A stretch of DNA of 64,000 bases from Thiomicrospira pelophila DSM 1534. GTDB taxonomy: Bacteria; Pseudomonadota; Gammaproteobacteria; Thiomicrospirales; Thiomicrospiraceae. The position numbers and the translations under genes were made by a program. The DNA is taken from positions 1,178,001 to 1,242,000 of the forward strand of contig NZ_JOMR01000001.1 in the NCBI RefSeq assembly GCF_000711195.1, in the 5' to 3' direction. Every line of letters begins with the position of its first letter. Positions within the stretch are counted from its first letter, which is position 1. The notes below the pieces were generated by a model. The model was not told where the DNA came from. It ran no database searches and saw only the letters and a program-made list of their open reading frames with translations. This document shows positions 43,676 to 46,592 of the stretch, one piece after another.

Positions 43676-43906
43676 TTATTCTTTGCTATCTTTATCTAAA
43701 CGCTTATTTAAGGCCGCTTCAACCGCGTCTAAACGTGATTTGCACACCTGATAGGCATGACTGGCATCATCAACCATCGGTACTAATTGGTCAATATCAA
43801 CCTCTTCCGCATGGGTTAATTGCTCGGCAATCTCTTGTAAACGCGCATAATTTTGTTTAAAGCTTTCCGCTTTTGTAGACGCTTTGGTTTGAACTTTAGC
43901 CGTCAT
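43676..43906 (-). CDS. xseB: Exodeoxyribonuclease VII small subunit
   Basis: The 76-residue protein fits XseB: NYARLQEIAEQLTHAEEVDIDQLVPMVD, then a helix with YQVCKSRLDAVEAAL. Several XseB chains coat each XseA. It follows xseA by 21 bases on the same strand, which supports the call despite short length. Confidence 0.88.
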   Translation of the reverse strand: MTAKVQTKASTKAESFKQNYARLQEIAEQLTHAEEVDIDQLVPMVDDASHAYQVCKSRLDAVEAALNKRLDKDSKE

Positions 43907-43927: not shown

Positions 43928-45547
43928 TTAACTCTTTAGTGGTTGTACTTGAACCGATCCATCCTGAAACTCAACTCTAAATTGGCTTAGAGATTGAGCT
44001 TGAGCTGCACTTGATATCGGCGCACCCTGTTGCGTTTTAGCCATAGCAAAACCGCGTTTAAGCTGCGACTGTGGTCCTGAACTCAAAATAAACCCCATAG
44101 TTTGTTTAAGCTGTTGGCGAAAGAAGCTAATCGCCCTTTTAGCATTCTGCTCAATTAGCTGTTGGTTGCTCTCTATCTGTTGTTTTGACCGGCTAATCGG
44201 TTGCTGAGCTTGGCTTATAATGTGTCGCAATTGATAATCTAAACTTGCTCGTTCACTACTAACCCATTGCTGACTAGTGTGTTTAATTTGAGTATATAAG
44301 GGTTCCAGCTGGGTTTTCCAATGCGTCAAGTTACGATTTTGTGAATAGTCAATTTGTTGTTTGAGTTGCTGTAACTGAGCTTGCGTTGTCTGCAATTGCT
44401 GCTGACTCAGGCGTTCAATTTGTTGCCAATTTTGCGTCGCTTGTTTTGCGCTGTTTTCAATTCGATGCCAAATACCGGCAACCACTTTACTGGGTGTGTC
44501 AAATCTTAGGCAGGCGACTTCGTCTAATATAGTGTTATCTCGCTCATGTCCTATGCCGGTTAAAACTGGTAAAGGTTGGGTTGTAATTGCTTTGGCTAAC
44601 TCCAATTGATTTAAAGGGTTTAGATCCAACTTAGCACCACCACCACGAATAATAACCAAGGCATCGAACGGGTTTTTTTGATGAATGCCGCTAAAGGCAT
44701 CCAGCGCACTGAGCATTTCGCTCACGGCCGCTTCGCCTTGAAAGCTGCTATGAAAATAAACAAACTCACATAAATTATAGTATTCAAGCGCATCCGCTTC
44801 GGCACGAAAATCACCCAATCCAGCCGCATTTGGTGGTGAAATCACCGCGATTCTAAACAAATCAGCCGGAAATGGAATTTGTTTATTAGACTGATAAATT
44901 CCTTGTTTTATCAATTCCTTACGAATAGCAATTAAATTTGCTTCAATCTCACCCAAGGTAAATTTTGGATCAAGGTCTTCCACCACTAATGAAAAGCCGA
45001 ATTTCTCATGGAAGTTAATCCCGACCTGAATTAAGACCTTTTGCCCGTCTTGCAAAGCACTGCCGGTCACCTGCTCAAATCGGCTTAATAAGCGACTGGC
45101 ATTTGATGCCCAAATCATGGCGCGACACGACGCTAAGGTTTGACCTTGGTCGTTATTTTCACTGAGTTCTAAATAAATATGGCCACGTCGCTCATTAATA
45201 TTCGCAATCTCCGCCCTCACCCATAAAGCTTTTGGAAACGCGCCTTTTAGCTTGGTCTGCACTTGATTTAACAATTGCGACAAGCTGACACTGTTAGCTT
45301 CGGTTTCTTCCTCTGAAGACAGAGTAACCGAATCAAAACTCAAATCCAGCGAAGCCGTTTGCGAATCAACAATGGCATTTTGACCACTCAAATCTGATTG
45401 GTTTGAAGAATCAAGCCATTGTGAAAACAAACTTAAATCCACTTGATCAGGGTCCGGCAAATACCATTTGCGTTTAAGTGGATCCCAGCCAGCCCCTTGC
45501 TGCTTGGCTAAATCTTTGTCGGGATAAGGCACATCAAGGTATAGCAT
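43928..45547 (-). CDS. xseA: Exodeoxyribonuclease VII large subunit with DUF5710 N-terminal domain
   Basis: The 539-residue protein has the XseA order: an OB-fold domain (LWVRAEIANINERRGHIYLEL, about residue 109), the catalytic region (VISPPNAAGLGDF, IIRGGGAKLDL, TGIGHERDNTILDEVA), and a long coiled coil. Before the OB fold are about 85 extra residues: YLDVPYPDKDLAKQQGAGWD with KRKWYLP, the pattern of DUF5710, a small domain usually found in plasmid primases and helicases. Then a Ser/Asp-rich linker follows. This fusion is unusual. The ATG at 45547 with GGAG upstream is chosen; it overlaps dusA by 14 bases. Confidence 0.93.
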   Translation of the reverse strand: MLYLDVPYPDKDLAKQQGAGWDPLKRKWYLPDPDQVDLSLFSQWLDSSNQSDLSGQNAIVDSQTASLDLSFDSVTLSSEEETEANSVSLSQLLNQVQTKLKGAFPKALWVRAEIANINERRGHIYLELSENNDQGQTLASCRAMIWASNASRLLSRFEQVTGSALQDGQKVLIQVGINFHEKFGFSLVVEDLDPKFTLGEIEANLIAIRKELIKQGIYQSNKQIPFPADLFRIAVISPPNAAGLGDFRAEADALEYYNLCEFVYFHSSFQGEAAVSEMLSALDAFSGIHQKNPFDALVIIRGGGAKLDLNPLNQLELAKAITTQPLPVLTGIGHERDNTILDEVACLRFDTPSKVVAGIWHRIENSAKQATQNWQQIERLSQQQLQTTQAQLQQLKQQIDYSQNRNLTHWKTQLEPLYTQIKHTSQQWVSSERASLDYQLRHIISQAQQPISRSKQQIESNQQLIEQNAKRAISFFRQQLKQTMGFILSSGPQSQLKRGFAMAKTQQGAPISSAAQAQSLSQFRVEFQDGSVQVQPLKS

Positions 45548-46592
45548 CTTGAGACTCCATACGTCGCTCAGTCGCTTGTTGAACCAAAGCATAAGCTTGC
45601 TGCAATACTTCTATTCCCACGCCCGGTTTAAAGGCATTTTCTGATAAGTGCCGACGCCATAAGCGTCCACCCGGTTGACCGTGAAATAATCCCATCATAT
45701 GTCGGCTAACATGGTTGACACGACCGCCAGACGAAAGATGCGCTTCTATATAAGGATACATACTCTCTAGTACTGTTTCTCGCGTCTTGATGGCATGCTC
45801 ATCGCCATAATATAACGCGTCCACCTCGGCCAATAAATAAGGTTGTTCATACACCGCGCGCCCCAACATCACCCCGTCAACAGCTGGTAACTGACTGTAG
45901 GATTCAAGATGCACCAGGCCTGCTTGCGGAGTGGCAATCCCACCATTTATCATGACTTCGAGCGCCGGGAAGGCTTTTTTTACTTCATGTACCCAATCAT
46001 AATTTAGCGGAGGCACGTCTCGGTTTTGCTTGGGGGATAAACCTTGTAGCCAAGCCTTGCGTGCATGAATAATCACCCCATCCACCTGCGCTTCGACCAG
46101 GCCTCCGATGAAGGATAATAAGGTGTCTAGGTCTTCTTGGTCATCAATTCCAACACGACATTTGACCGTCACTGGAATGGACACAGCTGATTTCATTGCG
46201 GCCACAGAGTCGGCGACTAACTTAGGGTGTGCCATTAAGCACGCGCCAATTAGGTTGTTTTGCACTCGATCACTCGGGCAACCTACGTTTAAATTAATCG
46301 AGTTATAGCCCCACTCTTCACCTAACTTAGCACAATGCGCTAAGTCAGCCGGTTCACTGCCGCCTAGCTGCAATACAACAGGGGCATCCTGCTCATCGTG
46401 ACCTAAAAAACGCGGTAGATTTTTGCCATAAATAATCGCACCAGTCGTTACCATTTCGGAATACAACCAGGCCTGGTGACTGAGTTTACGATGAAAAACA
46501 CGACAGTGACGATCGGTCCAGTCCATCATGGGAGCAACGGCAAATCGATGCGGGCTGATATTTGAAGACATTGAGTTAAAAGATTTGTTCAC
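45534..46592 (-). CDS. dusA: tRNA-dihydrouridine synthase A
   Basis: The 352-residue protein is DusA: FAVAPMMDWTDRHCRVFHR near the N terminus, LNVGCPSDRVQNNLIGACLM with the catalytic Cys, VKCRVGIDD, and NGGIATPQAG. It reduces uridines at positions 20/20a of tRNA using FMN and NADPH. The final end overlaps xseA. The first ATG at 46592 or one at 46571 could be used. One palindrome (46466-46477) is read as HQAW, and a nearby one-off CCAGGCCTGC lies at 45914. Confidence 0.96.
   Translation of the reverse strand: MNKSFNSMSSNISPHRFAVAPMMDWTDRHCRVFHRKLSHQAWLYSEMVTTGAIIYGKNLPRFLGHDEQDAPVVLQLGGSEPADLAHCAKLGEEWGYNSINLNVGCPSDRVQNNLIGACLMAHPKLVADSVAAMKSAVSIPVTVKCRVGIDDQEDLDTLLSFIGGLVEAQVDGVIIHARKAWLQGLSPKQNRDVPPLNYDWVHEVKKAFPALEVMINGGIATPQAGLVHLESYSQLPAVDGVMLGRAVYEQPYLLAEVDALYYGDEHAIKTRETVLESMYPYIEAHLSSGGRVNHVSRHMMGLFHGQPGGRLWRRHLSENAFKPGVGIEVLQQAYALVQQATERRMESQDAIP

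Follow-up and report, generated by a model that had tools for sequence, protein, structure and literature searches.

Exonuclease VII (ExoVII), a bidirectional exonuclease specific for single-stranded DNA, is a core repair enzyme, and how it is recruited to its DNA is poorly understood. In E. coli, an excess of the large subunit XseA without the small subunit XseB is toxic. Ordinary XseA proteins begin at the OB fold, as a preliminary description of the DNA studied here had stated, and several canonical gammaproteobacterial xseA loci that we read adjoin an IMP dehydrogenase (guaB-like) gene.

The domain DUF5710 (PF18974) is common yet uncharacterized on conjugative plasmids and phages. Its carriers include ArdC-N/MPTase/Toprim_3 primases, a UvrD/SLFN-like helicase, and an RNase_T exonuclease. 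The last of these (L047:1381-2493) ends in a weak DUF5710-like stretch of 23 bits, below the cut-off, and represents a second exonuclease type with such a stretch, at the opposite end from that of XseA. Rep_3 plasmid initiators also carry the domain (PMC11233732), and ArdC and TraC1 travel with plasmid single-stranded DNA (ssDNA) during transfer (PMC5512222). The polyvalent primases and Rep_3 initiators, which are mobile-element DNA proteins, have the same key DUF5710 residues as XseA; the domain lies inside the primases, often in tandem, or on the initiators, whereas XseA has a single N-terminal copy. Our literature search found no description of DUF5710 on XseA and met the domain only for plasmid Rep proteins (PMC11233732); the account of polyvalent proteins in PMC5512222 covers ArdC-N and Toprim proteins, not XseA.

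The window, by which we mean the whole 64,000-nt stretch of Thiomicrospira pelophila DNA analyzed here, encodes a predicted ExoVII large subunit with intact catalytic residues (Table 1). The annotation calls this protein plain XseA; the combination of DUF5710 with XseA is presumably already listed in domain databases. By its NCBIfam score, the protein is an equivalog of TIGR00237. Asp246, Arg301, His334, and Asp337 are invariant in 39 aligned rows and align with the E. coli ExoVII catalytic positions; the GHxxD and RGGG motifs and the upstream Asp are present, and His334 aligns with E. coli position 238, which is mutated (H238A) in the structure 8txr. The window protein shares with E. coli ExoVII the OB fold, nuclease, long helix, and C-terminal part, as well as a small subunit gene. 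Indeed, 8txr is the top PDB match to the OB-nuclease-long helix body of the AlphaFold model, with ~20-24% identity in the structural match. The window XseA differs from the E. coli enzyme in its extra DUF5710 and linker and in belonging to a divergent branch. Its partner XseB is of a variant type, scoring 94.6 bits with xseB_Acin_var (NF045605; cut-off, 40) and 40.4 bits with the general xseB model. Across most of the window's family (the Thiomicrospira relatives), xseA and xseB are adjacent in a conserved dusA-xseA-xseB array.

Table 1. Features of the xseA locus in window coordinates
Feature	Coordinates	Strand	Basis
xseA, plasmid-type ExoVII large subunit with N-terminal DUF5710, 539 aa	43928..45547	-	TIGR00237, 279.5 bits (cut-off, 180)
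DUF5710 domain, residues 1-45	45413..45547	-	Pfam match, AlphaFold model
Linker, residues 46-87; acidic, Ser-rich, disordered; net charge ~-8 in the window species	45287..45412	-	Low pLDDT, fast-evolving
OB fold (PF13742), residues 88-192	44972..45286	-	Pfam
Exonuc_VII_L (PF02601) nuclease, long helix, and C-terminal part, residues 219-534	43946..44893	-	Pfam
xseB, variant-type small subunit (xseB_Acin_var)	43676..43906	-	NCBIfam; sole xseB in genome
dusA, 14-nt overlap with xseA start	45534..46592	-	Gene order
Shine-Dalgarno-like GGAG, 7 nt before the xseA ATG	45555..45558	-	Upstream sequence

The preliminary description had reported a DUF5710-like N terminus of about 85 extra residues, with the strings YLDVPYPDKDLAKQQGAGWD and KRKWYLP followed by an acidic linker. 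Both strings are there, 87 residues precede the OB fold, and the domain is a true DUF5710. A Pfam scan matches it in the full protein with 51.2 bits (E, 1e-13) and in the isolated N-terminal segment with 56.6 bits, against a gathering cut-off of 26.5 bits, and the match covers model positions 1 to 43 of 44. It is the only DUF5710 match in the 2.1-Mb genome (55.7 bits). The linker is equally real, and the interval first singled out, 45300 to 45547, corresponds to XseA residues 1 to 82, that is, the domain and most of the linker. Starting at the OB fold is a usual trait of XseA and not a defining one.

The segment would be an artifact if translation began downstream, as the preliminary description had recognized, and in-frame GTG and TTG codons do occur in it. 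We regard this as hardly credible. The GGAG motif precedes the ATG at 45547, which lies within the end of dusA. In all family loci with dusA found upstream, the dusA stop falls within 17 nt of the domain start, on either side of it. In some relatives (L015 and L030), the open frame itself starts at the domain. These positions, the full-length Pfam match, and dN/dS values in the domain as low as in the core (see below) support an xseA start at 45547, with the domain included.

All 33 intact XseA proteins found in the window's family carry DUF5710. Among 36 family genomes, including that of the window, 34 have a DUF5710 match, 33 of them in XseA-length frames; the other match lies in a short frame in G004, a fragmented assembly with no XseA detected, and in the two genomes that lack a DUF5710 match, XseA was likewise undetectable. 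In a class sample of 369 gammaproteobacterial genomes, 22 have any DUF5710 match and 10 have intact fusions, namely, 4 of the window's family together with G055, G082, G137, G253, G286, and G340. A profile search of named genomes, built from a 4-row alignment, located the fused form in many Burkholderiales and in Methylococcaceae, Parabeggiatoa, Fluviicoccus, Thiomicrorhabdus, Hydrogenovibrio, and Sulfurivirga. Confinement of DUF5710-XseA to the window's family is ruled out by these fusions in other class genomes and in named genomes. Similarly, tblastn of plasmid records found DUF5710-XseA on Polaromonas pPNAP03 and on Variovorax and Vibrio megaplasmids, mostly arranged xseA-xseB. DUF5710-XseA is no local oddity: plasmids and chromosomes both carry it, either in addition to another ExoVII or as the only one.

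Several genomes hold damaged or multiple copies. In G352, a frameshift, whether a real loss or a sequencing error, severs DUF5710 (a 116-aa frame) from XseA, whose own frame begins within the linker. G232 has several broken or partial DUF5710-XseA copies (L044, L052, and L054) in addition to a canonical XseA, and another contig carries a variant XseB; the pattern looks like that of a mobile, decaying gene. Azohydromonas australica and Noviherbaspirillum malthae each combine about four plasmid-type copies with a canonical XseA, and in N. malthae the copy that we read has a degenerate DUF5710. The planctomycete Paludisphaera soli has a frameshifted DUF5710-XseA beside a canonical XseA, suggesting transfer across phyla.

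Fused XseA proteins match TIGR00237 with E-values of 1e-62 to 1e-83, and most other full-length gammaproteobacterial XseA proteins do so with 1e-105 to 1e-153. We built a tree of 81 rows from the XseA core without the N-terminal domain, by a quick search with SH-aLRT support only. The plasmid-type branch stands apart from canonical proteobacterial XseA, with which it does not group (SH-aLRT, 100), on a tree that has several long rows and weak inner forks. Within the branch, Bacteroidota XseA proteins fall outside the proteobacterial group. The Bacteroidota-type and Francisella/Psychrobacter proteins belong to the window's branch and have motifs of the AAGLGDF/GIGHERD type but, unlike the window XseA, lack DUF5710. 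DUF5710-free members of the branch were found in Francisella, Cysteiniphilum, Psychrobacter, Moraxella, and Bacteroidota by the named-genome scan. By tblastn, others turned up on plasmids of Acinetobacter, Pseudomonas, and Burkholderia and in phage records of Moraxella and Acinetobacter. Outside Comamonadaceae and Vibrio, plasmid XseA mostly lacks the domain. The presence of DUF5710 changes five times on the tree, which would most simply reflect a single gain, at the root of the proteobacterial group, followed by about four losses. The window XseA is a member of this divergent, plasmid-associated branch, in which DUF5710 is most simply ancestral, rather than a canonical XseA with a local add-on.

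The small subunit follows the same branch. The xseB_Acin_var model scores above its cut-off in 15 of the 369 class genomes, every one of which has a plasmid-type XseA. These include three Francisella-like genomes in which XseA lacks DUF5710, indicating that the XseB variant follows the XseA branch and not the domain. The window genome has a single xseB, of the variant type, and lacks canonical xseA and xseB, as would be expected if a plasmid-type pair had displaced the chromosomal one. Plasmid-type XseA is likewise the only type in Methylolobus, HdN1, Thiomicrorhabdus, Hydrogenovibrio, Thiomicrospira, Fluviicoccus, Ideonella, Curvibacter, Psychrobacter, Moraxella, and Francisella, and it accompanies a canonical XseA in Rhodoferax, Polaromonas glacialis, Pseudorhodoferax, Acidovorax, Azohydromonas, Noviherbaspirillum, and Paludisphaera. 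The plasmid-type ExoVII takes the place of the usual chromosomal enzyme throughout the window's family. We infer the direction of transfer, from plasmid to chromosome, which the tree itself does not fix.

To look at selection, we used 14 related pairs with unsaturated dS. The dN/dS of the domain, mostly within 0 to 0.13, is 0 to 0.05 in 6 pairs and 0.07 to 0.19 in the remaining 8, with a value of 0.02 between the window species and its nearest relative. Values for the XseA core range from 0.03 to 0.34 and those for the linker reach 0.59, and the linker also varies in length among XseA rows. The low values in domain and core and the high ones in the linker show that the domain and nuclease are constrained while the linker drifts. 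Across 72 XseA rows (window protein numbering), Trp28, Phe41, and Trp44 are invariant, positions 21 and 29 are aromatic in 71, and positions 11, 15, 20, and 26 are Lys or Arg in 69 to 71. The net charge of the domain is close to zero (median, +1). The window XseA is the sole row with Gly (GGC) at residue 20 (45488-45490), a position that is Lys or Arg in 69 of 72 relatives; its context reads GAGWD instead of GARWD, and the nearest relatives have Arg (CGT). This Gly20 may weaken the domain in the window species.

The AlphaFold full-length model gives residues 1 to 30 a pLDDT of ~93 and shows DUF5710 as a beta-alpha-beta-beta core with a short helix, followed by a disordered linker (pLDDT <50 for residues 55 to 82). 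Foldseek of the domain model against the PDB returned no match with an E-value below 1.8, and a profile search of PDB sequences with DUF5710 gave chance-like matches only. Against a viral structure library, the model matched other DUF5710 proteins and, weakly, epsilon-exonucleases. As to a conceivable relation of DUF5710 to the HARP domain, a Pfam scan of 41 domains gave no HARP match, and there was no PDB fold match for DUF5710.

We consider it somewhat probable that a plasmid-type XseA/XseB pair displaced the canonical pair and that the tethered DUF5710 gives the enzyme an extra ssDNA contact. DUF5710 is a small, complete domain under selection, joined to the front of the OB fold by a flexible acidic tether. 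The tether would most likely let it touch single-stranded or partly single-stranded DNA beside the OB fold, and this contact could keep the enzyme on its substrate or make it prefer a certain type of DNA end or structure. The pair probably originated on, or was spread by, mobile elements with single-stranded stages and would have displaced canonical chromosomal xseA and xseB in an ancestor of the window's family. The preliminary description had left the added contact as one with nucleic acid or protein. Conserved basic and aromatic residues and the DNA-handling carriers of DUF5710 favor DNA, and purifying selection on the domain supports a contact of either kind; we infer DNA contact by DUF5710 in XseA, and any effect of it on activity, from such features. 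Points against this explanation are the lack of a PDB structure match (Foldseek), the near-zero net charge, and the copies without DUF5710, among them most plasmid XseA outside Comamonadaceae and Vibrio. The enzyme does not need the domain, since Francisella, Psychrobacter, Moraxella, and Acinetobacter plasmid/prophage copies lack it.

The main rival is that DUF5710 docks on a protein such as SSB, primase, relaxase, or another part of the replisome and recruits ExoVII without touching DNA. A disordered tether carrying a small domain is apt for recruitment, many unrelated DNA enzymes have DUF5710 next to them, and SSB genes lie close to some plasmid copies. We nevertheless hold docking to be rather unlikely, as no single partner shared by all carriers is known and the basic/aromatic set is more typical of nucleic-acid contact, neither of which is decisive. 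Less probable still, to the point of being a minor alternative, is a regulatory domain that shields the OB fold or the active site, or curbs the toxicity of XseA on its own, until the right substrate or XseB releases it. The acidic linker could mimic DNA, and such a role would fit the toxicity of unpartnered XseA in E. coli, but a linker that varies so freely in sequence and length is ill-suited to a fixed lid. Finally, DUF5710 might be a passive relic of plasmid origin with no present role, given that it was lost about four times while XseA was kept, is degenerate in Noviherbaspirillum, and is severed in G352. Every intact family XseA has kept it, and in most pairs the domain and the nuclease core have equally low dN/dS; both points make this very improbable.

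DUF5710-XseA is a form of ExoVII with an added domain that is known otherwise from DNA-handling proteins of plasmids and phages. A broader proposal, possible but doubtful, is that mobile-element ExoVII is a specialized ssDNA processor for incoming or transferring DNA that repeatedly took over the chromosomal role, with DUF5710 as a new module for ssDNA recognition that plasmid primases, initiators, and exonucleases have in common. A natural, widely kept ExoVII with an added module offers a direct route to the role of DUF5710, through one enzyme with and without the domain. The finding also suggests that repair genes carried on plasmids can supplant the chromosomal ones, small subunit included.
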